A DNA stretch of 61,650 nt from a virus: IMG/VR virus record IMGVR_UViG_3300047476_000161, positions 1-61,650 of that record; one strand, given 5' to 3'. The notes under the pieces were generated by a model. It had not been told where the DNA came from and did no database searches. It saw only the letters and a program-made list of their open reading frames with translations. Each line of letters starts with the position of its first letter. The stretch's first letter is position 1. Below, in pieces: positions 2,660 through 56,166 of the stretch. The translations under genes and the position numbers were made by a program.

Positions 2660-3124
2660 TTAGTGTTGTTTTTTCGCCGCAATGTAGGCGTTGTTTTCTA
2701 TCCATTGTAAGGATTTTGTAAGGAATCCCCACTCGCGTTGTTGACGTCCGGGCATAAACAATGTCCAACATTCTACACCAGGATCTACTTCGATGCGATG
2801 GAAACTTGTAGCACTGCAAGTCCTAAAGTGACCAGGTCCGCGCCACTTTTGCATTTCACCGATCTTCTTGCCTTTGCCGTCAAACATCGGCACCCATTCC
2901 CAGTAGCCGCCTTTTAGTACTAAGGTAGCATAAGGCCAAGGGTGGTCGTGGAGGTCATCGGGGTCAGACTTTAAAAACTTGTGCAAGAACACATTAAACG
3001 GAAAACGCTTTCTATCTTTAAGGAATAGGTAATAGCGTTCAAGGTAAGGTTCGTTGCTTTCACGGTCTAAAATGATGCGTTTTCGACCTAGTTTTTCGAG
3101 GATTTTTGCAATAAAATGGATCAT
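2660..3124 (-). CDS. cupin-fold protein (154 aa)
   Basis: The central motif DDLHDHPWPYATLVLKGGYW looks like cupin motif 1 (HxH...G): residues LHDHPW followed by a beta-strand run and KGGYWEWVP. A second His-containing strand (SFHRIEV) and a later E/W-rich strand complete a small double-stranded beta-helix pattern. Metal binding is likely; the substrate is unknown. The start has AAGGAG upstream and a near-consensus early promoter (3144-3172). It could be a metal-dependent isomerase or dioxygenase, or a non-catalytic binding protein. Confidence 0.65.
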   Translation of the reverse strand: MIHFIAKILEKLGRKRIILDRESNEPYLERYYLFLKDRKRFPFNVFLHKFLKSDPDDLHDHPWPYATLVLKGGYWEWVPMFDGKGKKIGEMQKWRGPGHFRTCSATSFHRIEVDPGVECWTLFMPGRQQREWGFLTKSLQWIENNAYIAAKKQH

Positions 3125-28257: not shown

Positions 28258-28289
28258 TTTTGTATCCTGTTTTGTTAACCTATGCCATA

Positions 28290-28318
28290 ATTATAGCAGG
28301 TTCGGATTTATTGGTCAA
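28290..28318 (-). promoter_or_regulatory. sigma70-like early promoter, conserved-spacer family
   Basis: TTGACC (28313-28318), 17-bp spacer AATAAATCCGAACCTGC and TATAAT (28290-28295) on the minus strand. It drives the 44-residue gene. The spacer shares its first nine bases with those of the 2.2, 46.9 and 47.2 kb promoters. Confidence 0.8.
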
Positions 28319-28325
28319 ATTTTGG

Positions 28326-32070: not shown

Positions 32071-33363
32071 TTATTTTGATAAAATTGTTGACGCAGTGTA
32101 TTTTGAAATAGCTTCTTGTACGCTGCTCAGGACAATGTCATCAACTCCATTGTTGATAACGTGTTCTTTATTTATTACAACTGACTTACGAATCAAATTT
32201 CGTAGCAGTTCGGATACTTGGTTGCTTGTGTTATGATCCAATGAATCATACACATCAATGATTGATTGTAGCTTACTTGCTACGTTACTGTCAACTGCGT
32301 GGCTAGCCAAAAATTTAGCAACGTGTTTGTTACGTGCATTAGTGTCGCTACCAAAATTTAAGTTACTAGGATGGTTGACATCATCTTCGTCTGCGTTCTT
32401 GAGTTCGAGTTCTCTAATAGTGTCTAGCTGTCCGATTACGTCTGCAATTTCGTTCATCGTGCTTTCTTGCAGTGTAGCCTGGTCTAACAGTGCTAGTACG
32501 TATGGCATTGCAGACTCTACCGCAGTATTAACAGACTTCTTAGTAAAGTTGTTCTTCATTTCAGAAATTCTGTTGTTGTCATCGATTGTTGACAGTAATG
32601 TCATTTCTGCCAGACCGCGACCTGTCTTAAATGCCTTACCGATCTCTGCTGCTTTTTGTTCTGCTAACTCGACTAACTTAGCAGTATCCTCATTTACAAA
32701 ATTACTGCGCTTGCTGTGTGATACAAAACGCTTTAGTGAAATGTATTGCTCTGCTAGTTGAATTAATTTTTGACCTTGTTCGTCGTAAGGGTTGCCGCCT
32801 TCGCTAACGTGGTGAGCTAGTGCACGTGCACCTGCTAGATATTTAAACGGGTATGAGAAACGTTCGCCGACACGGTTCTCAATAAAGATTGCTTGTATGC
32901 TACGACTACGAGCACCTTTTACTTCTTCATTAACTGCTTTAGTGTGACGAATGATTAAACGAGCATTTTCTAATTTTTGATAGCTAGACTTTGTAGTACC
33001 TGTCATATTAACAGATTCGCTAACAGACTCTTTAGTAATTTGGAAAGCAAAGTCTTTTGGTTCTAATTTTTTACCGTAGTTTTTAACAGTAAATGTTAGC
33101 ATATAGTGACGTGCAGTAGTTTTAACTGCGTTAACTAAATCCTTAACATCATCGTACTGTTGGTTGTTGCCTACGTATAGTGAGATGTTATTTGCACTGC
33201 GGTCGTAGTGAATCATACTGTGTTTATCTTTAAGATAAAAACGAGTAGCTTCGTTTGGATCCAAAGTCTTTTTGGCTTCGTCGTCACCCATAATGATAGC
33301 GTTGCCGCTACCCACTAGGATATCAAATAATCTATTAGAAACGTTCTGTTTGTTTATGCTCAT
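32071..33363 (-). CDS. conserved hypothetical, probably virion protein (430 aa)
   Basis: A large helical protein with a charged middle (HTKAVNEEVKGARSRS) and no recognised domain. Homologous-looking proteins flank the DNA-packaging genes of aquatic T4-like phages. A late promoter CTAAATAA (33370-33377) lies only six bases before the ATG and no Shine-Dalgarno is seen, so the mRNA would be leaderless. Likely a structural or assembly protein. Confidence 0.65.
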   Translation of the reverse strand: MSINKQNVSNRLFDILVGSGNAIIMGDDEAKKTLDPNEATRFYLKDKHSMIHYDRSANNISLYVGNNQQYDDVKDLVNAVKTTARHYMLTFTVKNYGKKLEPKDFAFQITKESVSESVNMTGTTKSSYQKLENARLIIRHTKAVNEEVKGARSRSIQAIFIENRVGERFSYPFKYLAGARALAHHVSEGGNPYDEQGQKLIQLAEQYISLKRFVSHSKRSNFVNEDTAKLVELAEQKAAEIGKAFKTGRGLAEMTLLSTIDDNNRISEMKNNFTKKSVNTAVESAMPYVLALLDQATLQESTMNEIADVIGQLDTIRELELKNADEDDVNHPSNLNFGSDTNARNKHVAKFLASHAVDSNVASKLQSIIDVYDSLDHNTSNQVSELLRNLIRKSVVINKEHVINNGVDDIVLSSVQEAISKYTASTILSK

Positions 33364-33377: not shown

Positions 33378-33968
33378 TCAATTTGCATATCTCAATTCTT
33401 TAAGAATAGACAAGCAATCGTCAAAACTCAGTGCCTTATCAAACGACATACTAAGCAATATTCTTGTTTCTGTTTTACTCTTATTAAGGACCCGGTGATA
33501 TTCCGATGTATTGAACAATACTGCATTGTTGTCCATAGAAAATGACACTATAGCCTTCGGCGGCGATTTATATATTCCTGTAGTATAAAATGTATCAATG
33601 TTATAATGGAATTCGAAGTCGGGCTTGGTGTAGAATTCCGTTACCGAATCCGTATTAATTATAGGAAAATTCAAGCATATATGACGTTCTTGTTCTTTAT
33701 TAGGAATATGATCTATATGAATGTTAGTACTGGATTCTGGTGTTAGGTACATTACCAATCCGGAACCTACCAAATACTTAGATAAATCAGGGAAGTACAT
33801 TTCCGCAATGTCATTAAGATGCTTAACCTTATGGCCATTGCACCTTATAGCCTTATCTCTTTCACCTAACTCCGAAAATTTGTCAAAGTATGCTGTTTGT
33901 ACTCCTTTAATCACGCTTTCTTTAAAATTTAAAGAATACACATACGGCTTACATTTTATTCCATCCAT
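33378..33968 (-). CDS. HxD...H...R oxygenase-like protein A (196 aa)
   Basis: NIHIDHIP carries an HxD metal-binding pair, and SEYHRVLNKSKTETRILLSMSF carries a second His and the Arg expected of 2-oxoglutarate/Fe(II) oxygenases. Beta-strand pattern LNFPIINTDSVTEFYT between them fits the jelly-roll core. It is similar to the next gene at 33956-34555 and to 47228-47749. It overlaps that neighbour by 13 bases. Substrate unknown; protein or small-molecule hydroxylation is inferred from fold only. Confidence 0.6.
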   Translation of the reverse strand: MDGIKCKPYVYSLNFKESVIKGVQTAYFDKFSELGERDKAIRCNGHKVKHLNDIAEMYFPDLSKYLVGSGLVMYLTPESSTNIHIDHIPNKEQERHICLNFPIINTDSVTEFYTKPDFEFHYNIDTFYTTGIYKSPPKAIVSFSMDNNAVLFNTSEYHRVLNKSKTETRILLSMSFDKALSFDDCLSILKELRYAN

Positions 33969-34555
33969 TTAAAATACTCCATTGCATCATAGTATGACAT
34001 CCCGTCTTTAATGGATAAACTAAGAACCACACGTTTAGTTTTGCCTAAGTTAGTAATAGAATGCCATTGCTTAGTGTTAAGCAATACGGGGTCATTTATC
34101 ATATAACATTCTGCTACCTTAACAAGCAAATTACTATCATTTGCAAAAATTGTTTTAGTTTTTTCATCGTAGTGTGTGCTGCCACTATTTGTGTAGAACA
34201 CCGTAGGGGAATCAACAGTACATCCTTCTATAGGAAAATTTAATGCCGACTTACGTACTGATTCGTCGAAGCCTGCATCTGTATGCGGCAATGTTCTGCC
34301 GCCGGGGTTTAAATCGGAAATTAAACAGCCACCGCTGAGTATTGGTAATTTTTGCTTTATGGACTTGTATGCATCTACGTTTAGTTTGTCTACATCAAAA
34401 TAAGTTACCACATCGCCGTTGGCATTCTTATTTTTAGATACTAACGACATCATATTATGCACCGGCTTTATATACGTATGGTAATACTGAACAATTTCTT
34501 GCTGCAAGCCAGCAGGCAATACAGGAGCATAAAAATAGTCATCAGTATTAACCAT
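33956..34555 (-). CDS. HxD...H...R oxygenase-like protein B (199 aa)
   Basis: LPHTDAG supplies the HxD pair, and WHSITNLGKTKRVVLSLSI the second His and Arg. The intervening ALNFPIEGC...PTVFYT matches protein A's core, so the two are paralogues. The ATG at 34555 is preferred over an upstream GTG. Its first bases overlap the gp17 stop region. It could be an aspartyl/asparaginyl-type or prolyl-type hydroxylase; substrate unknown. Confidence 0.62.
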   Translation of the reverse strand: MVNTDDYFYAPVLPAGLQQEIVQYYHTYIKPVHNMMSLVSKNKNANGDVVTYFDVDKLNVDAYKSIKQKLPILSGGCLISDLNPGGRTLPHTDAGFDESVRKSALNFPIEGCTVDSPTVFYTNSGSTHYDEKTKTIFANDSNLLVKVAECYMINDPVLLNTKQWHSITNLGKTKRVVLSLSIKDGMSYYDAMEYFKWME

Positions 34556-34557
34556 TT

Positions 34558-36102
34558 TCACAACCCTATAGGCATAGGCATCATAATCTCTGCCTTTTCT
34601 ACTTCATCTTGTAAACGCTCAAACAAATTCTGATCCCAATTCATTAGCAACTGTATCATACGGACTGATAGTATAGATGCCATCACTAAGTCGTCTGTTT
34701 CGCCTTGTTTAGCTGCAAAGCTCTGGCCACTGGCAATAAAGTTCTTCATTTCTCTAATTAAGTTCTTAGAGCTAACTTTCATCTTGTCGTTTTCGATCCA
34801 GTACTTGAACTTCGCGCACGCCGCGATTTTTGTTTTGAACGACGTTGTGAAACCGCGCCTTTGTTTGCCCGGCTCCGTGAGGAACGTTGCTGGGATGTTT
34901 TCTTCACCCATCTCCCTAATAGCCATAAGAGCAGCTTCGCCAATAGTATTATTTTCAACACTCCAGTAGATCTCCCCTTTTTGTTTTTGATTTTTTATTT
35001 CGTGATCTATGTAAGAAATAATGTCCCTAATAATTTTTAGTTGTCCTTTAATGTCAGTTTTATTGTGCTGCCATTCTGCAACTTGTACCATTTCAGGAAG
35101 CTGGAATACTTGCACTGCCGAGTAATCGCCACCTGTTCCTAAGCTAGGGTCCCAAGACAATACAAATGTTTTGTTACCCTCAATGTGTCTGTAGTAGCGC
35201 ACTTGTCCTGCTTTTAGGATAGGATCTACTCCAGACAACTCTGCTAGCTTTAGGCTGTTAATTAGTGTTTCGTCGAATACGATGAATTCACATAAGTGCT
35301 CTCGACGGAAACGTTCTTCGCCAATCTTATTACGTTCTGCGTCTGCCCAAACCTGATCACGCTCTGGATGGCGGCTCCAATCGAACATAATGCTCTTAAA
35401 GCCGTTAACACCTACGCCAGTGTCGTTACCATATTCGTCTATTGTCTTGTTAGCTAGTTTCCAAATCTGTGCAAACTGGTCATCGTCGCTGTTAGGGGTG
35501 CTTGTAATAATACACTTACCACCAGTGCTTAGTGTAGGGCTCAGTGACGTCCAGAATTCTGTAGCAATGCGCGGCTTAACGAACGCAAACTCGTCTAGGT
35601 ATACTAGTGTTAATGACATACCACGACCGGTATTTTCTGTAGTAGTTGCACTAACAATACGACTACCGTTGTCAAACTCTAAGCTACCTTTGTTATAACT
35701 AGTTGCACCTGCACGTAAGTAGTTAGGCAAGTTTTCGTACATATAACGAATACGTTGCATAATTTCTTGTGCACCTGTGTGCTTATGCGCTGCAATTAAA
35801 ATTGTACTGTCGGGCACAAACATTGCATACCATAGCAAGTAGCCTGCTGCACAAGTAGACTTACCCATCTGACGCCCTAGCATATTAATGCTGTAGCGGT
35901 TATTGTGATAGCAATCCAACAAGTCGACCTGATAGTCGAATAAGTCAAACTTAACACGACCTTTAGTAGGGTGTTGGATATACATATGCGTCTTGATAAA
36001 GTATATTGGATCTGCTGCGCTCTTAGTGATTTCTTCAATCATCTCCGGCGTATAAGTTTCCGACGTATAAGGACGCTTTACTAATTCAAATTCTGATGCC
36101 AT
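34558..36102 (-). CDS. 17: terminase large subunit (gp17-like)
   Basis: A 514-residue packaging motor. Walker A-like GRQMGKST (76-83), Walker B VYLDEF (about 168-173), and the C-terminal RNase-H-type nuclease with acidic residues in SWDPSLGTGGDYSA, SVENNTIG and ETDDLVMA. It translocates DNA into proheads and cuts concatemers. The ATG lacks a Shine-Dalgarno and lies five bases after a late promoter (36108-36115). Confidence 0.95.
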   Translation of the reverse strand: MASEFELVKRPYTSETYTPEMIEEITKSAADPIYFIKTHMYIQHPTKGRVKFDLFDYQVDLLDCYHNNRYSINMLGRQMGKSTCAAGYLLWYAMFVPDSTILIAAHKHTGAQEIMQRIRYMYENLPNYLRAGATSYNKGSLEFDNGSRIVSATTTENTGRGMSLTLVYLDEFAFVKPRIATEFWTSLSPTLSTGGKCIITSTPNSDDDQFAQIWKLANKTIDEYGNDTGVGVNGFKSIMFDWSRHPERDQVWADAERNKIGEERFRREHLCEFIVFDETLINSLKLAELSGVDPILKAGQVRYYRHIEGNKTFVLSWDPSLGTGGDYSAVQVFQLPEMVQVAEWQHNKTDIKGQLKIIRDIISYIDHEIKNQKQKGEIYWSVENNTIGEAALMAIREMGEENIPATFLTEPGKQRRGFTTSFKTKIAACAKFKYWIENDKMKVSSKNLIREMKNFIASGQSFAAKQGETDDLVMASILSVRMIQLLMNWDQNLFERLQDEVEKAEIMMPMPIGL

Positions 36103-43460: not shown

Positions 43461-44174
43461 TTATTTCCTTATGAGTTTAATAATCCAGTACCCTGTGTCT
43501 AGTTGGTACCAGGCTTTTGAAAAATTAACACTGTATGACTCGTGGTGATTTTTATGTAAGCAGCTACCGCCAAATACAGGACTCAGCAATGCAGAGTTAT
43601 AAACCTTTCCTGTAGGTGAATGGAACAAACAATTCAAGCTAGTTTCCATTAAAAATACAGTGAACATAGCTAGTGCAATACTTGCACACACTATAGGGCT
43701 CAAAAAATAAGCAATTACTAGAGTTACATACGGTAGTATAAAAGATAATTTTTCTAGTGTCAACGTAACATTGTCCTTATACAAGTCTTTAACGCTGGCT
43801 AACATTTTAGGCGTAACATCAAATGTATAGACCCAAGAATATGCAGAATGGATGAATCCGTGCTTGGGACTGTGCGGATCTAAATCAGTATCACTGTGCT
43901 TGTGATGCTGCCTATGCACTAGGCTCCAGCTAATAGGGCCGCCGATTATTGCTAATGTGCCCAAATATCCCATAATAATTTTCAACGGCACACTTGTCTT
44001 GAAGCCATTATGGGAAAAGTATCTGTGGAAGCCTACACTAATTCCTACAGTCTGGATTAAAAATACGCTAACTAAGAAAGTAGCCAAGTCGATGCCAAGC
44101 ATATATGCACTTACTATAGCAAATATGCTAATAGGTGCGTGAACTGCTAGTGCATAGACTGCTGATATTCTCAC
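43461..44174 (-). CDS. membrane fatty-acid desaturase
   Basis: A 237-residue di-iron membrane desaturase. The three His boxes are visible: HRYFSH, HRQHHKHSD and HKNHHES, with hydrophobic segments between them. Family enzymes introduce double bonds into acyl chains using ferredoxin or cytochrome b5. The likely start is a GTG at 44174 overlapping the previous stop (TCGTGAG) with GAGGAA upstream. Desaturases are known in cyanophages. It is probably a metabolic gene acting on host lipids. Confidence 0.85.
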   Translation of the reverse strand: MRISAVYALAVHAPISIFAIVSAYMLGIDLATFLVSVFLIQTVGISVGFHRYFSHNGFKTSVPLKIIMGYLGTLAIIGGPISWSLVHRQHHKHSDTDLDPHSPKHGFIHSAYSWVYTFDVTPKMLASVKDLYKDNVTLTLEKLSFILPYVTLVIAYFLSPIVCASIALAMFTVFLMETSLNCLFHSPTGKVYNSALLSPVFGGSCLHKNHHESYSVNFSKAWYQLDTGYWIIKLIRK

Positions 44175-44662
44175 GAGAACTGTTCCTCTAACCAAGGCTT
44201 GCAAGCTGTCCAACTACGGTACACGTGAGCTCGACCTTTTGCATTAATCCATTCTTCGCAGTTGACTGTCCTGTCGTCGATTAGAATGTCGCCGGGGCGG
44301 CAGTGCATCCACTTTTGGTTACTGAACGGTCCGATGAATACAGGAATATCAGGGAAGTGTTGCTGTCCCCAGAGTACTTTATCTTGTACTGCCCAGGGCA
44401 TATCATTTTTGTGCGGGATAGCAGTCAAGAAGTAAAGCCCGTCTATCTTCTCATCACGGAGCAAGGCACGACAATAGTTAACTAACTCTAGTGCACCTTC
44501 TTTTAACGGAAGTTTGCTGTACATCCTAGGGTCGTCTTTAAGTCTACGCCAGGTAGTGTCCGGCAAGATCTCGCCCTCTTTCCAGTTTGGTTCTCTAAGG
44601 TATGCTCTGGCATATCCCATCCAATCTGCAATTACGTCGTCAATGTCTAAGTATATTTTCAT
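44171..44662 (-). CDS. HAD-family 5'-nucleotidase-like protein (163 aa)
   Basis: DIDDVIADW at the N-terminus is the HAD catalytic Asp-x-Asp motif of deoxy-5'-nucleotidases, LYFLTAIPHK supplies the motif-II Thr, and ILIDDRTVN the C-terminal acidic motif. It likely dephosphorylates dNMPs or balances the nucleotide pool. The ATG at 44662 is preferred over one at 44680. Its Shine-Dalgarno (AGGG) is in the preceding terminator stem. It overlaps the desaturase start by four bases. Confidence 0.8.
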   Translation of the reverse strand: MKIYLDIDDVIADWMGYARAYLREPNWKEGEILPDTTWRRLKDDPRMYSKLPLKEGALELVNYCRALLRDEKIDGLYFLTAIPHKNDMPWAVQDKVLWGQQHFPDIPVFIGPFSNQKWMHCRPGDILIDDRTVNCEEWINAKGRAHVYRSWTACKPWLEEQFS

Positions 44663-44696
44663 AAAAAAAGCCCTATGCACTAATTTAGCATAGGGC
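44663..44696 (-). terminator. intrinsic terminator upstream of the nucleotidase gene
   Basis: A nine-bp stem GCCCTATGC / GCATAGGGC with a nine-base loop and a run of seven T on the minus strand. It ends the gp13 transcript, and its 3' arm also supplies the AGGG that serves the next ATG. Confidence 0.85.
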
Positions 44697-44717
44697 CCAG
44701 TTAAAAGTCAATCGGAA

Positions 44718-45455
44718 TTAACCTATAACAAAGGTATAGCCTGTACCACCTTCGATATAGTTCTTTAATTCTTCTTCTAGCTTTTCAATGTCTGCGTTTG
44801 CTTCTTGTATCAAGTTAGCACCGTTTAGCTGTGCACCGCCGCTAGGGCCTGCAATTTGGCTAAACTTGCTACGTGCTTGTCCAAGAATTAATTTAGCTTG
44901 CGCTAGTGCATATGCCCTAATCCAAGGACCTGCATAAGTGTCCTCGATAAGGCTGTTGTCAGGACGGATCATATAAACGTGCATAATAACACTGTCCTCT
45001 GCACGAACGTTCCTGTGTATAGTTAGCTTGCGGCTTTGTGGTAGCCAAGTAAATTGTACGTGTGCGCCAAACATTTTACCTAGTGTTTCGCGGTAACTAC
45101 TGTACAATTCAAATGTTAGTAAGCCGCCCATTTTGTGGCTTTGTAGCAAGTAGGTGTTTAAGAAGCCTGCTTCGAACGGTTCAATGTCTTGGCCAGCACT
45201 AGCAATACCGCCCGCTACACGACGATACAATACTCTAACTTCTTGTATCTCTTTTGGTAGTTGGTATTCGCTTTGTCCTTCTATTAGATTTAGAACAACG
45301 AACGCCTCTTCCACACTTCTAGAACTACGCTGTCTAATCTTGCCTAACGCAATATCAATAGCCTGGTTATAATCTTCGGGGTCTAACTCAACGTCGACCA
45401 TACTTGCGCCTAGTGAGCGCTCGATGCTTTTAATTAAATCGTCTCTAGCTGCCAT
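44718..45455 (-). CDS. 13: neck protein (gp13-like)
   Basis: A 245-residue protein with the pattern of T4-like gp13: N-terminal DLIKSIERSLGASMVDVELDPEDYNQAIDIAL, LPKEIQEVRVLYRR, and the C-terminal GPWIRAYALAQAKLILGQ and IEKLEEELKNYI segments. Gp13 caps the head before tail joining. T4's has 309 residues. A perfect late promoter (45475-45482) precedes it and a terminator follows. Confidence 0.7.
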   Translation of the reverse strand: MAARDDLIKSIERSLGASMVDVELDPEDYNQAIDIALGKIRQRSSRSVEEAFVVLNLIEGQSEYQLPKEIQEVRVLYRRVAGGIASAGQDIEPFEAGFLNTYLLQSHKMGGLLTFELYSSYRETLGKMFGAHVQFTWLPQSRKLTIHRNVRAEDSVIMHVYMIRPDNSLIEDTYAGPWIRAYALAQAKLILGQARSKFSQIAGPSGGAQLNGANLIQEANADIEKLEEELKNYIEGGTGYTFVIG

Positions 45456-45474
45456 AACAGTTTCCTAATAACTG

Positions 45475-45482
45475 TATTTATA
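45475..45482 (-). promoter_or_regulatory. T4-type late promoter, perfect TATAAATA
   Basis: Exact TATAAATA on the minus strand, 19 bases before the gp13 ATG at 45455. Confidence 0.8.
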
Positions 45483-45503
45483 GCAACTAGAGACCTAGTC
45501 TGC

Positions 45504-46643
45504 TTACTTGACTACTTTAACAATTAGAGTGTCTTCGTTCAAGCGGCCTGTTAGCTTGACTTCTACTGCATTGATCCCGTCCATAAACTTACGGATTTGG
45601 ATCTTGCCCGCAGTTAGCAGAGCTTTTAGCTGTTCTGCTGGCTTACGCAGAGTCTTAGCAACACTCTTAGCTTCGTCAAATCCAGTCAGGCTAGTACCTT
45701 TAACACCAATCGGACCCAAGGTAGCATCTGCAATATACTTGCCTAGCTTGCGTGTTTTAGTGTTGAACACCCACACTTCTGTTGCTCCGATCATTTGTGC
45801 AGGGTTAACGCTAGTAACCTGCAGGCCTGTATCCGCCTTCATATACTTGACCTTGGACACAATCTTCTCGACACTCTTAGCCTTAGCTTTGCGTGGCTTC
45901 TTAACTGCCTTCTTAGTAGTAACATAGCTTTGGCAATCTGCAACTACGGACTCAAAGAACTTGATTACAGCCTTGAGCTTAACTTTACTAAAGTTAGAGT
46001 ACGCTTCCTTGAGTTCTTTGTCATCGGTGTTTTGCACTTCAGTGAACTCGGCAATACGCTTGTTAGCAAAGTCAACAATCTTGCCCACTTGTGCCTGCGG
46101 CGTGTTGCGTTCTTTGAGCAGTGCAAAGGCATTGGCTTTAACGTTAGTGTCTGCTACAAAATCGTCAAAGCGGCCTTCTAGTTCGCCTAGCGTTTCAGCA
46201 GTCTTCTCACGCAAGAAATCCTGGATCGTAGGCTTTTGCACTACTTGTTCCGGAGTCTTAATCTTAGGCTCAGTGTCGGCAACAATGGAGGCTTCGGCCT
46301 CACGAATCGCTTTTGCTAGCTTTTTCATTTCGCGATAAGAAGCAGGATACCCCATAGTAATCATACGAGCTAGCCAGCCGTAAGTAGAGGAGATGTCTAG
46401 CTTCTTTTGACTCTTAAACTTCTTAGCAAGGTCTCGGCGCTTGGGCTTAGAGTTAAGCCAGTATACGATAAACTCTTGCGCCTTATCTGCTCCGTACAGA
46501 TAATTATACCAGTTAAAGGCTCGCATTGCATCTACTTGGCCGTAAGTGTTACCTTGAACCCAGACTGGTTCATCACCTGTAAATTTAGCGTCTGAGCCGC
46601 GGTTGATAATTTGACCTTCTACTGATGCTTTACGAGTTGCCAT
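45504..46643 (-). CDS. conserved phage protein (379 aa), early expressed
   Basis: A basic protein with a Lys-rich middle (KKAVKKPRKAKAKS) and two helical, mixed domains; the first (AFNWYNYLYGADKAQEFIVYW) is Trp/Tyr-rich. I associate this type with phages of several lineages but know no function. A good sigma70-like promoter (46669-46698) indicates early expression, unlike its late structural neighbours. DNA or RNA binding is possible from the basic stretch. Confidence 0.7.
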   Translation of the reverse strand: MATRKASVEGQIINRGSDAKFTGDEPVWVQGNTYGQVDAMRAFNWYNYLYGADKAQEFIVYWLNSKPKRRDLAKKFKSQKKLDISSTYGWLARMITMGYPASYREMKKLAKAIREAEASIVADTEPKIKTPEQVVQKPTIQDFLREKTAETLGELEGRFDDFVADTNVKANAFALLKERNTPQAQVGKIVDFANKRIAEFTEVQNTDDKELKEAYSNFSKVKLKAVIKFFESVVADCQSYVTTKKAVKKPRKAKAKSVEKIVSKVKYMKADTGLQVTSVNPAQMIGATEVWVFNTKTRKLGKYIADATLGPIGVKGTSLTGFDEAKSVAKTLRKPAEQLKALLTAGKIQIRKFMDGINAVEVKLTGRLNEDTLIVKVVK

Positions 46644-46668
46644 ACTGTTTCCTTGCTATGAGTTTGCT

Positions 46669-46698
46669 ATTATATAGTCAATTAGGCAATAAAGTCAA
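46669..46698 (-). promoter_or_regulatory. sigma70-like early promoter
   Basis: TTGACT (46693-46698), an 18-bp spacer and TATAAT (46669-46674) on the minus strand, overlapping the 3' end of the small gene at 46682-46888. Confidence 0.75.
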
Positions 46699-46888
46699 AT
46701 AGGTAGCCATAAGAGCCATCGCGGCTCATTTGGACTTTGTTGCTGTAGTCTTTGTTCAGACGAGCAAGCACCTTCTTTGCTTCTGCTTCGGAGCAAATGA
46801 CACTCAACGTACCGCAGAAGAAGCTAGCGGCGTTGTCATTTTTAAGAATTTTTTCAACTTTGTTCAACACTACAGTTTCGAAACCCAT
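46682..46888 (-). CDS. small early hypothetical protein (68 aa)
   Basis: Starts MGFETVVLNKVEKIL with AGGAGAA upstream, and carries the SEAEAKKVLARLNKDY helix. The size and pattern are typical of small early phage proteins. Preceded by a conserved-spacer promoter at 46921-46949. Function unknown. Confidence 0.65.
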   Translation of the reverse strand: MGFETVVLNKVEKILKNDNAASFFCGTLSVICSEAEAKKVLARLNKDYSNKVQMSRDGSYGYLFDFIA

Positions 46889-46920
46889 TGCGTTCTCCTG
46901 TTTTGTTACGCTATGAATGT

Positions 46921-46949
46921 ATTATAGCACTTTTGGATTTATTGAGCAA
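46921..46949 (-). promoter_or_regulatory. sigma70-like early promoter, conserved-spacer family
   Basis: TTGCTC (46944-46949), spacer AATAAATCCAAAAGTGC and TATAAT (46921-46926). The spacer is identical to that at 47210-47238 and one base different from the one at 2209-2237. Confidence 0.85.
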
Positions 46950-46957
46950 ATTTTGAC

Positions 46958-47179
46958 TCATTCTTCAGGGAAGCCATAGCCGCCGCGGCAACTGCCGTCA
47001 TAGGGCTGGATAATAGTGTATACTTTAGTATTATCTTTTTTCCACTCGTCATAAGCAAAAGAATGTGCCCAGGCCAGGTTGTCGTGCTCAAACAACACTT
47101 TAGATTTGTCGTAGCTCCAAGGATCGCTTGCATCACTGCACTCAAACACTTGATAAAAGCTCTTGGGATAGTTGTTCAT
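46958..47179 (-). CDS. small early hypothetical protein (73 aa)
   Basis: Trp/Tyr-rich acidic protein (MNNYPKSFYQVFECSDASDP) with a Gly-rich end. An alternative frame at 46939-47145 was judged a shadow. The start is not strongly supported by a Shine-Dalgarno. It follows promoter 47210-47238. Function unknown. Confidence 0.6.
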   Translation of the reverse strand: MNNYPKSFYQVFECSDASDPWSYDKSKVLFEHDNLAWAHSFAYDEWKKDNTKVYTIIQPYDGSCRGGYGFPEE

Positions 47180-47209
47180 CTGATGCCCGTTGTTGCTTAC
47201 TATACTAGT

Positions 47210-47238
47210 ATTATAGCACTTTTGGATTTATTGAGCAA
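47210..47238 (-). promoter_or_regulatory. sigma70-like early promoter, conserved-spacer family
   Basis: TTGCTC (47233-47238), spacer AATAAATCCAAAAGTGC and TATAAT (47210-47215). It overlaps the last codons of the third oxygenase-like gene. Confidence 0.85.
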
Positions 47239-47749
47239 ATTTCGACAAGAAGTTGGCTTCGTTCAGACGAATGCTTACGCAAATCCTACACTGTGCAGAC
47301 ACATTAATAATCCTGTGCGGAGCAGATATATTAACTATAGCAGGCCCATTCCAGTATTTAGAATACTCTAGCTTGCATTCATCTTCTGTATATTCTATAA
47401 ATTTTCTATCTATTTTGTTATAAGACAATGTATCTGTTTTGTTTATTAAAGAAAACCATTCCATTACCCAGGTTTTAGATTTTCCTATTATCCAGTTAAT
47501 TGCATACAATCCATTATCTATCGAATCTCCGTCTGTATGTAATGCCATTTTTAATCCGGGAGGAGAAACAAATATCTGCACTTCCTTTACAGTTAACCCC
47601 AGGGCATTTATTCCATTTACTACAGGGAGGCTTAATACATTAACGGGTAAATTGATGATATCACGCTTAGTTCCGAATAGAATCTCAGGGTCGGTAGTGT
47701 CTATTAATGGGTAATTTCCCCAATCCTGTAATATCTTGTAAAAATACAT
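47228..47749 (-). CDS. HxD...H...R oxygenase-like protein C (173 aa)
   Basis: ALHTDGDS has the HxD pair, and APHRIINVSAQCRICVSIRL the second His and the Arg. The jelly-roll strand pattern is shared with the two genes near gp17, though the sequence is more diverged. A late-type CTAAATAC (47754-47761) lies four bases before the ATG, so it may be leaderless. Its substrate is unknown. Confidence 0.55.
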   Translation of the reverse strand: MYFYKILQDWGNYPLIDTTDPEILFGTKRDIINLPVNVLSLPVVNGINALGLTVKEVQIFVSPPGLKMALHTDGDSIDNGLYAINWIIGKSKTWVMEWFSLINKTDTLSYNKIDRKFIEYTEDECKLEYSKYWNGPAIVNISAPHRIINVSAQCRICVSIRLNEANFLSKFAQ

Positions 47750-47753
47750 AGCC

Positions 47754-47773
47754 GTATTTAGTAAGGTAAATAC
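47754..47773. promoter_or_regulatory. divergent late promoters
   Basis: Minus strand CTAAATAC (47754-47761) faces the oxygenase-like gene; plus strand GTAAATAC (47766-47773) faces gp14 (ATG 47795, AAGGA Shine-Dalgarno). Confidence 0.55.
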
Positions 47774-47794
47774 ACTATAAAAAGGATTATTCTT

Positions 47795-48796
47795 ATGGCT
47801 CGTTTATCGCTATGGAAAAATTATAAAAGCAAAGACTATTACTTCCTTGACCGCACTGTAAGAGAACAGTTCGAAATAGGCGGTACAGGTATCTTCATTC
47901 ACAAATACACCGGGCCAGTAGAAGCAGACGGGGTAGTAAATCCTGACGAATTGACAGAAATAACTATTCAAGACTTGACGTTTTTAGAAAACCGTGATCG
48001 TAAATACGACCCAGATGTATACGAAATTAAAGGGCACTATCAAGTTAGTGATCACGATTTCGATCTAAGTCAGTTTGGTTTATTCTTGCAGACTGATACA
48101 GTTTACATTACTTTCCATTTAAATGAAATGGTAGAGCGTATCGGGCGCAAATTAATGAGTGGTGATGTGCTAGAATTACAGCACTTGCGTGACGATATGG
48201 GACTAGATGAATCAAAAGCACCTAGTCGTAAATTTTACGTTGTGCAAGATGCGAGTCGTGCTTCGGAAGGTTATACCCCGACTTGGTATCCACATATTTG
48301 GCGTGTTAAATGTGTGCCACTAGAAGATACACAAGAATTTAAACAAATCCTCGAGCTCGAGAATGACGATGGTACCACTATCAAGGATACTCAAACTTCA
48401 TTGCAAACTGCACTTAACATTACTGACGCTATTGTTGCGGCTGCTGAAGAAAATGACCCTACTGGTGCTAGTTGTACTGCTCATCTTGCTAACTACGATC
48501 CTGAAACATTTGTCTATAACTACGGTGCAGACATTCCAGAAGGAGAAACTTTTCCTAGTACACCTCGACTAGGTGACAAGTTTATACGCACAGACTTTGT
48601 GCCGCATCGTCTGTTCGAGTACAGAGACAATAGATGGCATCGCTTGTACGATAACATAGATCAAAACACTTGGGCAACTAAGACTATCAACGGCGCAACT
48701 TTTGTTAATAACAGTAATACTACTGTAGTCGGCGGTAAGGAGTTTGATGAACGTCAACCATTGAGCAAAGTTATCAAACCTAAAACGGACAATTAA
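47795..48796 (+). CDS. 14: neck protein (gp14-like)
   Basis: A 333-residue protein with strong gp14 character: LDRTVREQFEIGGTGIFIHKY, IQDLTFLENRDRKYDPDVY, DFDLSQFGLFLQTDTV, GRKLMSGDVLEL and YVVQDASRASEGYTPTWYP. Gp14 with gp13 closes the head for tail attachment. The C-terminal segment GDKFIRTDFVPHRLFEYRDN resembles the surface modules of gp18. First gene of the second plus-strand island. Confidence 0.82.
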   Translation: MARLSLWKNYKSKDYYFLDRTVREQFEIGGTGIFIHKYTGPVEADGVVNPDELTEITIQDLTFLENRDRKYDPDVYEIKGHYQVSDHDFDLSQFGLFLQTDTVYITFHLNEMVERIGRKLMSGDVLELQHLRDDMGLDESKAPSRKFYVVQDASRASEGYTPTWYPHIWRVKCVPLEDTQEFKQILELENDDGTTIKDTQTSLQTALNITDAIVAAAEENDPTGASCTAHLANYDPETFVYNYGADIPEGETFPSTPRLGDKFIRTDFVPHRLFEYRDNRWHRLYDNIDQNTWATKTINGATFVNNSNTTVVGGKEFDERQPLSKVIKPKTDN

Positions 48797-48798
48797 TT

Positions 48799-50151
48799 AT
48801 GGACTTCTTTTACGATCAACAAATACGCAGACACATTGAACAATTTATTCGCTTGTTTAGCGGATTAAATGTTTATATGGGCAAAGACAAGAATGGAATT
48901 GATACGTTCCAGCGTGTTCCTGTACGCTACGGAGATGCAAGCCGTATGGCAAGTCACATCCTTCGCAACAATACAGAAAACTTTATGAACACTGTGCCTG
49001 CTATTAGTTGTTACATAGAGAATATGTCCATTAACGCAAGCCGCAGAGCTAACCCTACATACCAGGATAAAGTACAGGTATACGAACGCAAGTACGACAA
49101 GGAAACTGGCAAATACACAGACGGAACCGGTGATACTTATACTATCGAGCGCCATATGCCTGTCCCTTACGACTTAAAGTTTAGCGTAGATGTATGGACT
49201 AGCAACACTGATCAAAAGTTCCAGTTAATAGAGCAGATTGCTATTATGTTCAACCCCAGTGTTAATATTAGAAGTAGCTGCAATGCGTTTGACTGGACTG
49301 CTCCTACATATGTAGAGCTATCCGACTTAACATATTCCAGCAGATCTATTCCTCAGGGCCCTGACGCTAGCATTGATATTACCAGCTGGAAGTTTAATAT
49401 GCCTATATGGATTACTCCTCCTGCTAAAGTCAAACGCCAGGTCTTAATTTATAACATTATGACTAATATCCACACTGTGGATACCCTAGAGACTCCGTTA
49501 AGCGATATGCCATTTGACGAAGTTCCTAAAGAAACTACATCCTTTATGGTTATTACTTACGAGGATAGAAAAGTAGATGTAGAAGGCAATCGCATCAAGC
49601 TGTTAAACGATAGAGGCACTACTCACGATGATGCTAACGGCGGAGAACTAAGCTGGGTTACAGAGCTTAAACAGTTCGGGCAAATCAAGCCAGGCATTAG
49701 TCAAATACGCTTACGCAGAAGCGATGACATAGAGTACGCAAATGACGATATTGTCGGCTTAATCGAGCACGACCCCGATAACGATAACGAACTTATTTTT
49801 ACTGTAGACACTGCTACTATGCCTGCTGATACATTGCCGATGGTCATAGGTGTAATCAATCCTACTAAGTCGCATCCAGGATCAGGGATACTTCCTCCTG
49901 CTGCTAGTGGTCAGCGTTACTTGCTAGTAGAAGATTGTCCTGCGGACGGGTTATGGGATGTGACTGCTAGCGCCAATGACATTATAGAGTACGACGGTGA
50001 ACAATGGTTTGTTGCGTTTTCTCATACTAGCACTGCAACACAATTTGTGACTAATGCTAACACTATGGTTAAATACCAATGGACAGGAACCGAGTGGGTA
50101 GATGCTTATCAAGGCGTTTACAATCCTGGCTATTGGAGACTATATCTGTGA
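48799..50151 (+). CDS. 15: tail sheath stabiliser / tail completion protein (gp15-like)
   Basis: A 450-residue protein. The N-terminal 210 residues match gp15 (FYDQQIRRHIEQFIRLFSG, VPVRYGDASRMASHIL, VPAISCYIENMSINASRR). T4 gp15 has 272 residues, so about 200 residues of C-terminal extension are extra; its end (LLVEDCPADGLWDVTASAND, TMVKYQWTGTEWVDAYQG) is again module-like. It terminates the tail and contacts the neck. Two bases from gp14. Confidence 0.82.
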   Translation: MDFFYDQQIRRHIEQFIRLFSGLNVYMGKDKNGIDTFQRVPVRYGDASRMASHILRNNTENFMNTVPAISCYIENMSINASRRANPTYQDKVQVYERKYDKETGKYTDGTGDTYTIERHMPVPYDLKFSVDVWTSNTDQKFQLIEQIAIMFNPSVNIRSSCNAFDWTAPTYVELSDLTYSSRSIPQGPDASIDITSWKFNMPIWITPPAKVKRQVLIYNIMTNIHTVDTLETPLSDMPFDEVPKETTSFMVITYEDRKVDVEGNRIKLLNDRGTTHDDANGGELSWVTELKQFGQIKPGISQIRLRRSDDIEYANDDIVGLIEHDPDNDNELIFTVDTATMPADTLPMVIGVINPTKSHPGSGILPPAASGQRYLLVEDCPADGLWDVTASANDIIEYDGEQWFVAFSHTSTATQFVTNANTMVKYQWTGTEWVDAYQGVYNPGYWRLYL

Positions 50152-50967: not shown

Positions 50968-50998
50968 TAAACAAGGGCATTAGCCCTTGTTTAGTTTT
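50968..50998. terminator. bidirectional intrinsic terminator between convergent genes
   Basis: A ten-bp stem AAACAAGGGC / GCCCTTGTTT with loop ATTA. The loop contains the TAA stop of the minus-strand fibre gene (50980-50982). It separates the plus-strand island from the fibre gene. Confidence 0.9.
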
Positions 50999-53900
50999 GA
51001 CTCTAGATCTTTTACCTTAGCACTTAGTTCCTTAACTGCTTCAATTAGCAATGCAGTTAGTTTGTCGTACTTAACAGTCTTATAACCTTCATATGCGCTG
51101 TCTGTTACTAGCTGCGGTAACACTGCTTCAATTTCTTGTGCAATGACACCAACTTGCGGCGTGTTGTCGACGCCTAATGCTAGTGCAGTTTCATTAGGAT
51201 CAAATGTAACACCTCTAATTGCTTCTACTTTGTCTAGTGCATTTTCAATAGGTGCAACATTAGTCTTTAGTCGAGCATCAGAGTAGTATGCTGTTACTTC
51301 GCCAGTAGCAGTGATATCGCCTGTAATTGCAATACTGCCACCAATACTGCCACCGCCTGTAGATAATAAGTTAGTGATAACACCAGTTGTATTGTTGTAG
51401 CTAATACCGGTGCCTGCGCTTAGTGCTGCTCTTGCACGTGCATCTGTGTAGTATAAGTTACTGCCTTCTGCAATACTAGAAGTAGTGTATGTAGGAGTTG
51501 TATAACTAATAACACCGGTTGTTGGGTTATAGCTTAAACTGCCGCTTACACTAATTGCATTACGTGCACGTGTAGTCGTGAAGTATAAGTTAGTGCCGCC
51601 TTCTGGTACTGCATCTGTTGTGCCAGGGCTTGAACTGATTTCGATATAACTAGAGCCGGACCATCTGTATGTCTTGTTAGTGTCTAGTGCTACATAAATC
51701 TTACCTGTTTCGCCTGTTCCTGGGAAACTACCTGTGTTGATGTATTCGACTACATCATCCACAAAGCTAGGTAGCTGCGCTGCCGGTACCTTACCAGTGC
51801 TATCTAAACTTGCATATCCATTTGCAACACCTTTGTTTGCTGCATTTTCCGGAGTATAAGTTAATGCACCAGTTACATCACTTGACTGTAGTGTAACTGC
51901 GCCAGTGCGTCCGAATACACTTTGTACTGGTGCTGCTGCACTTGCTCTTGCATTGGTATAATATAAATTAGTACCTTCTGCAATGTCGCTAGTTGTTGCA
52001 TTAGTTGCGCTAGTTGTTCTACCCTTAGCATCAACAGTTACCTTTGTGTATGTACCTGCTGTTACACCTGTGTTAGATAGTGTAGCAGTAGAAGAACCTG
52101 CAGGGATAGCAACATCGCCTGTAATTTGTGGTTGTATTCTATTCCAGCTAGAACCGCTATCAACATACAATGTATAAACATCATCTGCTACATAGAATCG
52201 GCCAACTGTACCTGGTGCTGGTTTGGCTGCGTCTGCGCCACGCTGGATGCTTTCTGCGCCACCTGCATTGATTACTTGAGCATTGTTTGTTACATTAGTT
52301 AATCCGACATCTGCTTTAGTTAATGTTACTGCGCCAGTACGGCCTGCTACACTAGTTACTGGGAAGTCTATTGCAGTATTAGATACGCTAGTTACTCGGC
52401 CTTTGCTGTCGATTGCAACGGTAGGTACCGCGGTACTTGTGCCGTATACACCTGCACTTACGCCAGTGTTGTGTAGTGTCACACTAATTGCAGTAGTACC
52501 AGAACCTGTTACATCACCATTTAGCGTAATTGTTTGGTTGCCGGTTAAGTATGCTGCATTAGAACCTGCTGTTACACGACCTTTTGCATCAACTTGTACT
52601 GTGTTGTAAGTTCCTGCCGTTACACCAGTTGTTGCCAAAGTAGCAACTGTATCGCCTGCTGTAATTGATATATCGCCTGTAATAGCAGGCTGACTCATAT
52701 TAGTCCAACTAGAGCCATTGTAGGTGTATATAGAGTGAGCGTCGGTGCCGATATATACTGCACCGTTAACACTAGATGCAGGGCGGGCACTTAGCAATCC
52801 TGTTGAAATTTTAGGAGTAGAACCCGCGTTCTCAACTTGTGCTACGTTTAATACGTTGCCTAAACCTACGTCTGTACTAGTTACTGTAACATCACCTGTA
52901 CGTCCTGCAACACTAGTCACTGGGAAGTCAATGTTAACTTCTGCTGCGTTAGATAGTCTACCTTTATTGTCTACTGTGAATGTAGCTGACTTAGTAGAGC
53001 CGCCATACGATCCTGCTGTAACACCGGTTGTCGATAACAAGGTAGCTATGTTAGTATTACCTGTGCCAATTATGTCACCTGTTAAACTGATAACTTGGTT
53101 GGCAGTTAAGTAAGCTACGTTACTCCCGTTAGTTGCACGGCCATAAGCATCAACTGTAATGTTATTATATGTTCCTGTTGTTACGCCTGTTTGTGCTAGA
53201 TCAATACTGTCCGGGTTAACAACAATTCTTCCAGAGTCTGCAGATACAATATCTAGCTGACTAAATGTTTTTGTTAAACCTGCACCTGCTGTTACACTAG
53301 CTGCTGCCAAGAATGTTTGGAAAGATAAAGCTGTTGTTCCTAGTACAATAGGATTTGGTGTACTTAAAATAAAGCTGTAGCTTGCATATGTGTCACCGTA
53401 TTCTACTGGGGTATAGCTACCGCTAGGTAATTCTGCACTAGTGTCTGCATCGCTACTACGTGTCCAAGGTCCCGAAGACACATCATAAATGCCGTTTTCA
53501 GATGCAGTTAATTGGTCTTTAACTAGAACACGTTCGCCTGCTGATAGTGAATAGCCGTCGATAGTCTGTAAACCGCTTAAAGTAATAGGGCCAGTAGTTG
53601 CGACCGCAACTGGACTATGATAGCTAACGTTAACAATACCATATAAAGTATCGTCTACGTATTTCTTAGTGGCAGCGTGTAAGTCTGCACTAGGTGCACC
53701 TGCTAGCACTAACTCACCGGTCATAGTGTCGCCCGCTTTGTTTAACGGAACATAGCCTAGTGTGTTCGTTATATCGGTAGCACTAAGCAATCTTGCATCG
53801 GTAATTCTACCCTTAGTATCAACTGTAAAGTTATTATAGATGCCAGGAGTAACTGCTGTATTAGCCAATGTCATTGTGATAGCAGCGTTTGAGCTACCAT

Positions 53901-56166
53901 CAAATAATGCACTACCAGTAGCATCGCCGTTAACTGAAATGCTTCTAGCAGTAGCTAGCTTAGTTGCAGTGCTTGCGTTACCAGACAATGTTGCGCTAAT
54001 TGTACCTGCGCTAAAGTTTCCGCTGGCATCACGAGCTACTAGGCTTGAAGGAGTGTTATCACTATGACTGTCTAGTGCAATTACACCAGTGCCAGAGTTG
54101 TATGATAAGCCAGTGCCTGTTGCGCTTAGTGCTGCTCTTGCACGTGCATCTGTGTAATATAAGTTGCTACCTTCGGTAATACCGGTTGTACTAGGAGTTG
54201 TATAGCTGATAACACCGGTTGTTGGGTTATAGCTTAAACTTCCATCTGCGCTGATTACATTACGTGCACGTGCATCGGTAAAGTATAAATTAGTTACACC
54301 TTCAGTAATTTCGTCTGTGTTGTCTTTACCTGCTACTGCGGCATCTACATAGGACTTGGTTGCTGCGTGATTAGATGCAGTAGGACTTGCTACTTGTAGG
54401 GTACCAGTAATAAGGGCATCGCCGCCTACTGATAAACGTTTTGTTTCGTCGTGCGGTTCTGGTATGTTGATACAGACTGCGCCGTCGTCGTGTAACTCTA
54501 GGTTAACTGTGCCATTGCTTACTAGATATGTTGTAGTTCCGTTACGGTAAAAACCAGTTGCAGGGCTGCTGTTAAAATAGAAAGACGGGCTTAGTAAACT
54601 ACCATCAGGTAAGCCAACTGCACCTTGTAATTGGCCTCCAGTAACTGGTACCGGAATGTAGCCTAGTGTGTTTGTAATGTCTGTAAATGTTAGTTGAGCA
54701 CCAGTTGTTACACGGCCTTTTGCATCTACAGTTACCTTTGTATATGTACCTGCTGTTACGCCAGTGTTAGACAAAGTACTAATGCCGGTGTTAGCGGTAA
54801 TGTTAACATCACCTGTTACTGCCGGGCGTAAAGTTTCCCACGCCGTACCTGTATCTCGAGAAATGCTCAGTGTATCTGTTGCAACGAATAGTCGACCTGC
54901 TATACCTGCTGCTGGGCGAGCACCTAGTGTGTTTGCAACAATACCAGGCACGCCAGAGTAGTTTACGACCTGTGCAGAATTAAGAACATTGCCTAATCCA
55001 ACGTCACTGTTGTTTAGTGTAACTGCACCTGTTTTACCTGCAACACTAGTTACCGGATAAGTAACATCAACTTGAGATGCTGCGGTAACTCGTCCTTTGC
55101 TATCTATTGTTAGGCCAACAAACTTGTTGTTTCCGCCATATGTTCCTGCGGTGACCCCAGTGTCTATTAGAGTGACGTTGATGCTAGTATTGCCCGAACC
55201 AGTTGCATCACCTGTTACGCTAATGCTTTGGTTTTCAGTTAAGAAGTCAATTAAATTGACACCAACAACACGACCATACTTGTCGATTTGAATTAAGTTG
55301 TATGCACCTTCTGTTGTTCCGGGAACATCGCTCCATAAGTCATATAAATTGATACCGGACTCGGTCACTGTAATTGCTTCCGGATCTGCTGTTTTGATTT
55401 CAACTTGGTTAGCACCGTTAACTTGTGTACCGTTACCTGCTGTAACTTCGGTTAAGAAGTCGATTAAGTTAACACCAACAACACGGCCGTATTTGTCGAT
55501 TTGAACTAGGTTGTATGCACCTTCTGTTGTTCCGGGCACATCACTCCATAAGTCGTATAAGTTAATACCGTCTTGAGTTGCAACAATGGCTTCAGAATCC
55601 GCTGTTTTAACTTTAATCAAGTTACCGGACATTTCTAAGCCTTCGCCTGCTAGTAGAGTACCAGTGCCTGTAAACTGACTAAAAACAAGCTCAGTAATGC
55701 CTAAAACAATGTCTTTTGATACTAAAATCCAGCCTGTTTTAGCATAAGTGACGCCTTCTGCAACGAATGTATGTAGACCTTGTGTAACGTCTAGATTCGT
55801 ATTTGCATCGTCTGATCTAACTAAACCTGTGTCAGTTAGTGTGTAGATACCATTAAATCGTTTGTCTGCTTGTCCAATTAGCAATACTCGATCGCCTGTT
55901 GCTAGCGTTACTCCGTCTACAGTTGCAGGAGGATTTGCTAGGTCAGATATATTAAAATCTGCCAATGCTCGGCAACTTGCTTTCGGATCTAGACCTTGTG
56001 CAACTAAGTCTACGTAGGCTTTGGTTGCAACGTGTGTCGGACTAGTCGGATCTGCTACAACGATACGTGCGTTGTCAACTACAACATCGCCATTGGCGTT
56101 GACTGTAATTTTATCTTGTTCTGCTACATTTAGAACATATTTGCTAGACGTTTTACTCTTAAACAT
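50980..56166 (-). CDS. large tail fibre with chaperone-type C-terminal domain (1728 aa)
   Basis: Built from repeated shaft modules of about 130-200 residues: TGVTAGTYxxVTVDAKGRVT, SVTGDATGSG, PVTSVAGKTGAVTLNNSDVG. SPTHVATKAYVD near residue 40 (with LHAATKKYVD later) marks adaptor sites. A unit GINLYDLWSDVPGTTEGAYN occurs twice. The C-terminal 110 residues have the intramolecular-chaperone (peptidase S74) signature YYSDARLKTNVAPIENALDK and QVGVIAQEIEAVLPQ, so the fibre trimerises and probably self-cleaves. Late promoter-like AATAAATA (56195-56202) precedes it. Confidence 0.9.
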   Translation of the reverse strand: MFKSKTSSKYVLNVAEQDKITVNANGDVVVDNARIVVADPTSPTHVATKAYVDLVAQGLDPKASCRALADFNISDLANPPATVDGVTLATGDRVLLIGQADKRFNGIYTLTDTGLVRSDDANTNLDVTQGLHTFVAEGVTYAKTGWILVSKDIVLGITELVFSQFTGTGTLLAGEGLEMSGNLIKVKTADSEAIVATQDGINLYDLWSDVPGTTEGAYNLVQIDKYGRVVGVNLIDFLTEVTAGNGTQVNGANQVEIKTADPEAITVTESGINLYDLWSDVPGTTEGAYNLIQIDKYGRVVGVNLIDFLTENQSISVTGDATGSGNTSINVTLIDTGVTAGTYGGNNKFVGLTIDSKGRVTAASQVDVTYPVTSVAGKTGAVTLNNSDVGLGNVLNSAQVVNYSGVPGIVANTLGARPAAGIAGRLFVATDTLSISRDTGTAWETLRPAVTGDVNITANTGISTLSNTGVTAGTYTKVTVDAKGRVTTGAQLTFTDITNTLGYIPVPVTGGQLQGAVGLPDGSLLSPSFYFNSSPATGFYRNGTTTYLVSNGTVNLELHDDGAVCINIPEPHDETKRLSVGGDALITGTLQVASPTASNHAATKSYVDAAVAGKDNTDEITEGVTNLYFTDARARNVISADGSLSYNPTTGVISYTTPSTTGITEGSNLYYTDARARAALSATGTGLSYNSGTGVIALDSHSDNTPSSLVARDASGNFSAGTISATLSGNASTATKLATARSISVNGDATGSALFDGSSNAAITMTLANTAVTPGIYNNFTVDTKGRITDARLLSATDITNTLGYVPLNKAGDTMTGELVLAGAPSADLHAATKKYVDDTLYGIVNVSYHSPVAVATTGPITLSGLQTIDGYSLSAGERVLVKDQLTASENGIYDVSSGPWTRSSDADTSAELPSGSYTPVEYGDTYASYSFILSTPNPIVLGTTALSFQTFLAAASVTAGAGLTKTFSQLDIVSADSGRIVVNPDSIDLAQTGVTTGTYNNITVDAYGRATNGSNVAYLTANQVISLTGDIIGTGNTNIATLLSTTGVTAGSYGGSTKSATFTVDNKGRLSNAAEVNIDFPVTSVAGRTGDVTVTSTDVGLGNVLNVAQVENAGSTPKISTGLLSARPASSVNGAVYIGTDAHSIYTYNGSSWTNMSQPAITGDISITAGDTVATLATTGVTAGTYNTVQVDAKGRVTAGSNAAYLTGNQTITLNGDVTGSGTTAISVTLHNTGVSAGVYGTSTAVPTVAIDSKGRVTSVSNTAIDFPVTSVAGRTGAVTLTKADVGLTNVTNNAQVINAGGAESIQRGADAAKPAPGTVGRFYVADDVYTLYVDSGSSWNRIQPQITGDVAIPAGSSTATLSNTGVTAGTYTKVTVDAKGRTTSATNATTSDIAEGTNLYYTNARASAAAPVQSVFGRTGAVTLQSSDVTGALTYTPENAANKGVANGYASLDSTGKVPAAQLPSFVDDVVEYINTGSFPGTGETGKIYVALDTNKTYRWSGSSYIEISSSPGTTDAVPEGGTNLYFTTTRARNAISVSGSLSYNPTTGVISYTTPTYTTSSIAEGSNLYYTDARARAALSAGTGISYNNTTGVITNLLSTGGGSIGGSIAITGDITATGEVTAYYSDARLKTNVAPIENALDKVEAIRGVTFDPNETALALGVDNTPQVGVIAQEIEAVLPQLVTDSAYEGYKTVKYDKLTALLIEAVKELSAKVKDLESKLNKG
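55241..55570 (-). repeat. 117-bp direct repeat inside the fibre gene
   Basis: 55241-55357 and 55454-55570 are near-identical, encoding the duplicated unit beginning GINLYDLWSDVPGTTEG and the following IDKYGRVVGVNLIDFL. It is probably a recent in-frame duplication. Confidence 0.8.

Follow-up and report, generated by a model that had tools for sequence, protein, structure and literature searches.

Two small overlapping genes beside the terminase gene of a large phage, and a third 13 kb away, share an HxD...H...R pattern, which raises the question whether they encode Fe(II)/2-oxoglutarate (2OG) dioxygenases and whether they act together. An earlier sequence-only reading had proposed both, describing three paralogues that form one phage hydroxylation system. 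The stretch of virus DNA analysed here, hereafter the window, is IMG/VR record IMGVR_UViG_3300047476_000161, positions 1 to 61,650. It is part of the genome of a T4-related, jumbo-type phage, whose terminase shares 55.6% identity with the enzyme of Pseudomonas jumbo phage PA5oct and about 50% with the enzymes of Phosso and Atu_ph07. The relevant features are the following.

33378-33968, minus strand: gene A, 196 aa, Fe(II)/2OG oxygenase-like, with H84, D86, H158 and R169 (open reading frame, conservation, model, Foldseek)
33956-34555, minus strand: gene B, tandem paralogue of A with HxD...H...R (open reading frame, BLASTP to A, alignment)
47228-47749, minus strand: gene C, 173 aa, with HxD...H...R, of another subgroup than A/B (open reading frame, alignment)
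34558-36102, minus strand: terL (gp17-like), PHROG terminase large subunit, E 5.6e-121; upstream border of the A/B slot
32071-33363, minus strand: virion structural protein, phrog_13484, E 6.9e-25; downstream border of the A/B slot
47795-48796, plus strand: virion structural gene, phrog_11591, E 1.3e-84; divergent from C and bordering the C slot

The three open reading frames lie exactly where the sequence-only reading had placed them, and A and B indeed overlap next to terL, by 13 nt, with B abutting terL. For B, a start at the ATG at 34555 (199 aa) is likelier than one at the GTG at 34561 (201 aa). Because terL is followed by B and A on the same strand, with ends that overlap, the two are probably translated together with the late packaging and structural genes. 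The TAAATAC late-promoter motif was tested and is not enriched. The GC contents of A (34.3%), C (35.1%) and B (37.0%) are the three lowest among 53 genes longer than 400 bp. Recent acquisition was considered as an explanation and rejected, as their third-position GC is ordinary (33-36% versus 36.8 +/- 5.5); the low GC thus reflects amino-acid composition.

The reading that we prefer, with a probability of roughly 0.7, is that A, B and C jointly belong to the Fe(II)/2OG dioxygenase superfamily and are auxiliary, exchangeable cargo. Each protein would fold into a double-stranded beta-helix in which two His and one Asp hold iron, while an Arg 10-11 residues past the second His would hold 2OG. The genes would be cargo rather than core virion genes, with C in a second slot; both slots are exchanged or emptied between close relatives. 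The proteins probably hydroxylate or otherwise oxidise a substrate, a modification that probably helps in some hosts and not in others. As the target, a lipid, surface glycan or small molecule seems slightly likelier than a virion or host protein.

The relationships among the three genes bear on the idea of a single system. A and B are paralogues, as judged from their BLASTP match (E 5e-12, 32% identity over 133 aa). C is barely detectable in pairwise comparison with either of them (E 0.004 and 0.02), and in a tree with many long branches it falls with its counterpart in another contig (L147_C) and with genes from oxygenase clusters of larger phages, while A falls with L003_A, the protein of a sibling contig; at least two changes are forced. 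The claimed paralogy therefore holds for A and B and fails for C. Since C groups with other phage genes and A, B and C do not form one clade, the idea that one gene was triplicated, with C as the third copy, was rejected, although many branches are long. Together with the replacement or loss of all three in close relatives, this leaves the proposal of one phage hydroxylation system in three copies unsupported.

What the genes might act on is suggested by the company that such genes keep. Among 77 readable terL loci, some of which are near-duplicates, a structural gene directly follows terL in 67, typically after 15-60 bp, and the slot likewise holds no cargo in PA5oct, Phosso, Atu_ph07 and Vibrio phage 2.275.O. 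Cargo is present in the other ten and is an HxD...H...R open reading frame in five of these.

terL slot of L003, L057, L058, L062 and L072: HxD...H...R open reading frames
terL slot of L012 and L014: QueC/PP-loop-like protein
terL slot of L063 and L076: methyltransferase
terL slot of L050: protein of no recognised kind

For L014 and L076, the assignment rests on agreement in size and position with the occupants of L012 and L063, and for L014 also on sequence. In larger phages, oxygenase-like genes gather: phage records of 335, 264 and 80 kb each have three to four profile matches, lying within 6-14 kb, with additional HxD...H...R open reading frames around them. Neighbouring genes encode fatty-acid desaturases, radical-SAM enzymes, a TauD-like oxygenase, a methyltransferase, a nitroreductase and a QueC-like protein, and by eye sulfotransferase-, GNAT- and sugar-epimerase-like genes were added. 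The terL-slot protein of L012 and one cluster protein have 37% identity (E 2e-71). A desaturase in the window (43461-44213, minus strand; PF00487, E 5.6e-11) has relatives among the cluster desaturases (E down to 2e-22); its distance is about 3 kb to C and 9 kb to B, and it does not form a cluster with them. These two relationships link slot cargo to the clusters, and it is mainly this link that favours tailoring of a small molecule, lipid or glycan. The dense oxygenase-like clusters in L232, L233 and L231 (phage records of 80-335 kb), which besides radical-SAM, desaturase and nitroreductase genes also have PP-loop-like and transferase-like genes, possibly encode a biosynthetic pathway.

The best-placed competitor, unlikely but deserving serious consideration, is hydroxylation of a protein (a tail fibre, another virion protein or a host factor) in the manner of aspartyl/asparaginyl or prolyl hydroxylases. 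The location of B/A in the late structural module is consistent with it, as are the tandem oxygenase pair that adjoins a 1688-aa tail-fibre-like gene in a 231-kb relative, the Asp/Asn hydroxylases among the viral structure matches of A, and the weak similarity of relatives to PF05118 (Asp_Arg_Hydrox), which in L098 reaches E 7.4e-4, below the cut-off. However, no candidate target protein was identified, the genes are absent from most relatives with the same virion genes, and the clusters of larger phages abound in enzymes for small molecules and for sugars or lipids. A wider and rather improbable extension of the preferred tailoring reading is that jumbo-type phages draw on a common mobile toolbox, in which highly diverged genes for 2OG oxygenases are joined by desaturase, radical-SAM, PP-loop and transferase genes. 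Such genes might dock singly in small slots, as after terL, or gather in clusters, and the clusters might then encode a phage-directed lipid, glycan or natural-product-like pathway that differs among close relatives.

The enzyme class itself was approached through residues, conservation and predicted structure. The sequence-only reading had described a shared HxD, an N-P-I strand and a late His...Arg. HxD and His...Arg are found in A (H84-I-D86, H158, R169), B (H93-T-D95, H167, R177, numbered from the GTG start) and C (H71-T-D73, H145, R155); the N-P-I strand is confined to A and B (NFPI), the corresponding residues of C being NWII. By itself, the HxD...H...R motif is weak evidence: a bare regular expression is matched by shuffled versions of A, B and C in 4.6, 1.2 and 0.2% of trials, and by 17 of the 397 open reading frames of 150-230 aa in related loci, HNH-nuclease-like ones among them. 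It is conservation among relatives that lifts the motif above chance. Across 34 aligned proteins, many of them identified from a profile or from their position rather than from the motif, the best-conserved positions of A besides Met1 are H84 (34/34), H158 (34/34), D86 (33/34; D or E in all 34, giving an HxD/E...H facial triad) and R169. An Arg of the 2OG type at +10/+11 from the distal His occurs in A, B and C and in 32 of the 34 relatives. Some relatives were pulled out by a DNA pattern, V-L-[LF]-N-T-x-x-[YW]-H-x3-N, derived from A, B and L003_A, and a later profile search added more members; HxD and Arg both lie outside this pattern and are nonetheless present in every protein that it retrieved.

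The sequence-only reading had staked its proposal on a jelly-roll fold, and the double-stranded beta-helix is indeed what the model of A predicts (pLDDT 82.7, pTM 0.82). In a Foldseek search of the PDB, the top matches of this model are almost all Fe(II)/2OG dioxygenases (SptF, TlxIJ, SyrB2, SnoK, KanJ, AsqJ), with a best E of 7e-6 and 174 matches at E<=1e-3, at modest TM-scores to solved structures of 0.41-0.52. In the viral library BFVD, it matches cyanophage 2OG-Fe(II) oxygenases, phytanoyl-CoA dioxygenases and Asp/Asn hydroxylases. For C, modelling gave a weak result (pLDDT 65.5), with cysteine dioxygenase and cupin folds ranking first in the PDB. This ranking is what speaks for the notion that A, B and C are cupin-like metal proteins lacking 2OG chemistry, or inactive relatives, an alternative that seems quite improbable given that HxD and the Arg at +10/11 are so widely conserved and that the model of A matches 2OG dioxygenases and not cupins. 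The Fe(II)/2OG-like assignment is thus well supported for A through its predicted model and the structural matches of that model, and supported for B by homology and residues; for C, since its own model is poor and prefers cupins, it rests on residues and relatives.

Family searches show how far the three proteins have diverged. No Pfam or PHROG family confidently recognises A, B or C; PF13640, PF05118, PF05721 and PHROG 61 give no above-cut-off or significant match, and their relatives give only sub-threshold matches to curated families. Direct look-ups in viral contigs or phage genomes returned no significant relative of A, B or L003_A, and for C an identical contig only. A PDB profile search gave chance matches only. 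When 84,980 bacterial and archaeal genomes were scanned for the residue pattern given above, no relative passed the length and HxD filter. Adjacency to the terminase, which acts in DNA packaging, could point to DNA base modification (TET/JBP- or AlkB-like), repair or anti-restriction. A repair role has been proposed for cyanophage 2OG oxygenases (PMC3037559; PMC2984593), a methyltransferase occupies the terL slot of L063 and L076, and there are weak matches to phrog_274, labelled 'DNA endonuclease V'. This explanation is nevertheless very doubtful: the Pfam models of DNA-acting dioxygenases (TET/JBP, AlkB) match none of A, B and C, no base-hypermodification genes were noticed among the window's open reading frames, and position after terL need not mean function, since unrelated cargo occurs there too. 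The label of phrog_274, moreover, probably mis-names a 2OG-oxygenase-like family, because its match spans the HxD...H...R region. That family is matched by L098:494-1090 and by other 2OG-oxygenase-like phage proteins, and proteins named 'DNA endonuclease V' also occur among the Foldseek matches of A.

The preferred reading of A, B and C as exchangeable cargo stands on comparisons with close relatives, in which two segments of the window are replaced or absent.

33398-34545: segment replaced in L003 (BLASTN borders at window positions 33397 and 34546)
47243-47762: gene C segment absent from L146 (520 bp gone, 15 bp in place)

The sibling L003 is 95% identical to the window in DNA on both sides of the A/B slot, ungapped, and in it a single gene, 46% identical to A, replaces A and B. 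The replacement is bordered by the terL stop and the last codons of A, and the flanking proteins are nearly unchanged (terL 99.4% and the downstream virion structural protein 99.3% identical). At the second slot, L146, which comes from the sample that also yielded L003, aligns with window positions 43608-47242 and 47763-48802 at 94-95%, and the product of the bordering virion structural gene is 99.7% identical. L147, whose flanking proteins are 68-81% identical, carries in the C slot a homologue that is only 35% identical to C. In the 231-kb relative (G006), both slots are empty and the tandem oxygenase pair lies elsewhere. That close relatives swapped or lost the genes at exactly the same spots is what marks A, B and C as exchangeable cargo. 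Errors of metagenome assembly are a hardly plausible cause of these differences: both L003 and L146 are short and come from a single sample (IMG 3300016476), as contigs whose origin from one phage is not provable, but reading frames are intact, identity is about 95% on both sides, junctions are clean at both slots, L147 holds its diverged homologue in the C slot and the terL slot contains other genes in other lineages.

In T4, gp17 lies in the stretch between g15 and g18. In cyanomyoviruses, the genome between g15 and g18 is described as a hyper-variable region (Millard 2009, as reported in PMC2984593). As far as that report describes it, the region resembles the terL slot in having cargo inserted in a structural module, in the stretch that holds gp17; the slot described here differs in comprising one or two genes immediately after terL, in another phage group, with oxygenase-, QueC/PP-loop- or methyltransferase-like contents.

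T4-like cyanophages encode several 2OG-Fe(II) oxygenases, for which an effect on 2OG levels or a role in repair has been proposed (PMC3037559; PMC2984593), and structure-based annotation finds prolyl-hydroxylase-like proteins to be widespread in marine phages (PMC12774648). To this known kind, A, B and C add new members that are highly diverged. Like the cyanophage enzymes (PMC3037559; PHROG 61), they are small, have a 2OG-oxygenase fold as predicted for A, occur several per genome in T4-related phages and have proposed auxiliary roles. Unlike them, they show no significant sequence match to those families, and A and B occupy a terL-adjacent slot in PA5oct/Atu_ph07-related phages. The phytanoyl-CoA hydroxylase-like and SptF-SyrB2-SnoK-type dioxygenases share the predicted fold, the HxD...H triad and the Arg 10-11 residues after the distal His; A is shorter (196 aa) than these enzymes, with 8-16% identity and a TM-score of about 0.4-0.5.

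A search of the open-access literature found no description of such an enzyme's substrate, nor of the terL slot. Phage 2OG oxygenases are common in marine phages and few have known substrates, so that near-identical phages differing by exactly these genes constitute a natural experiment, and the contents of slot and clusters suggest which other enzymes to test alongside. The set as a whole is widespread, highly diverged and missed by standard profile libraries.

Some further observations concern the remainder of the window. A promoter-like repeat, TTTGCTCAATAAATCCAAAAGTGCTATAAT (TTGCTC-17-TATAAT), precedes small open reading frames on the minus strand at 47210-47239, 46921-46950 and 2209-2238, with a diverged copy near 28265-28324, where none is expected by chance; the stop codon of C falls within one of the copies. 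A cysteine-dioxygenase-like protein (phrog_4786, E 5.4e-36) is encoded at 2660-3124 on the minus strand. Finally, the large tail-fibre-like open reading frames at 50980-56166, 57897-59789 and 59847-61589 have repeated DNA segments in common, at roughly 68-84% identity.
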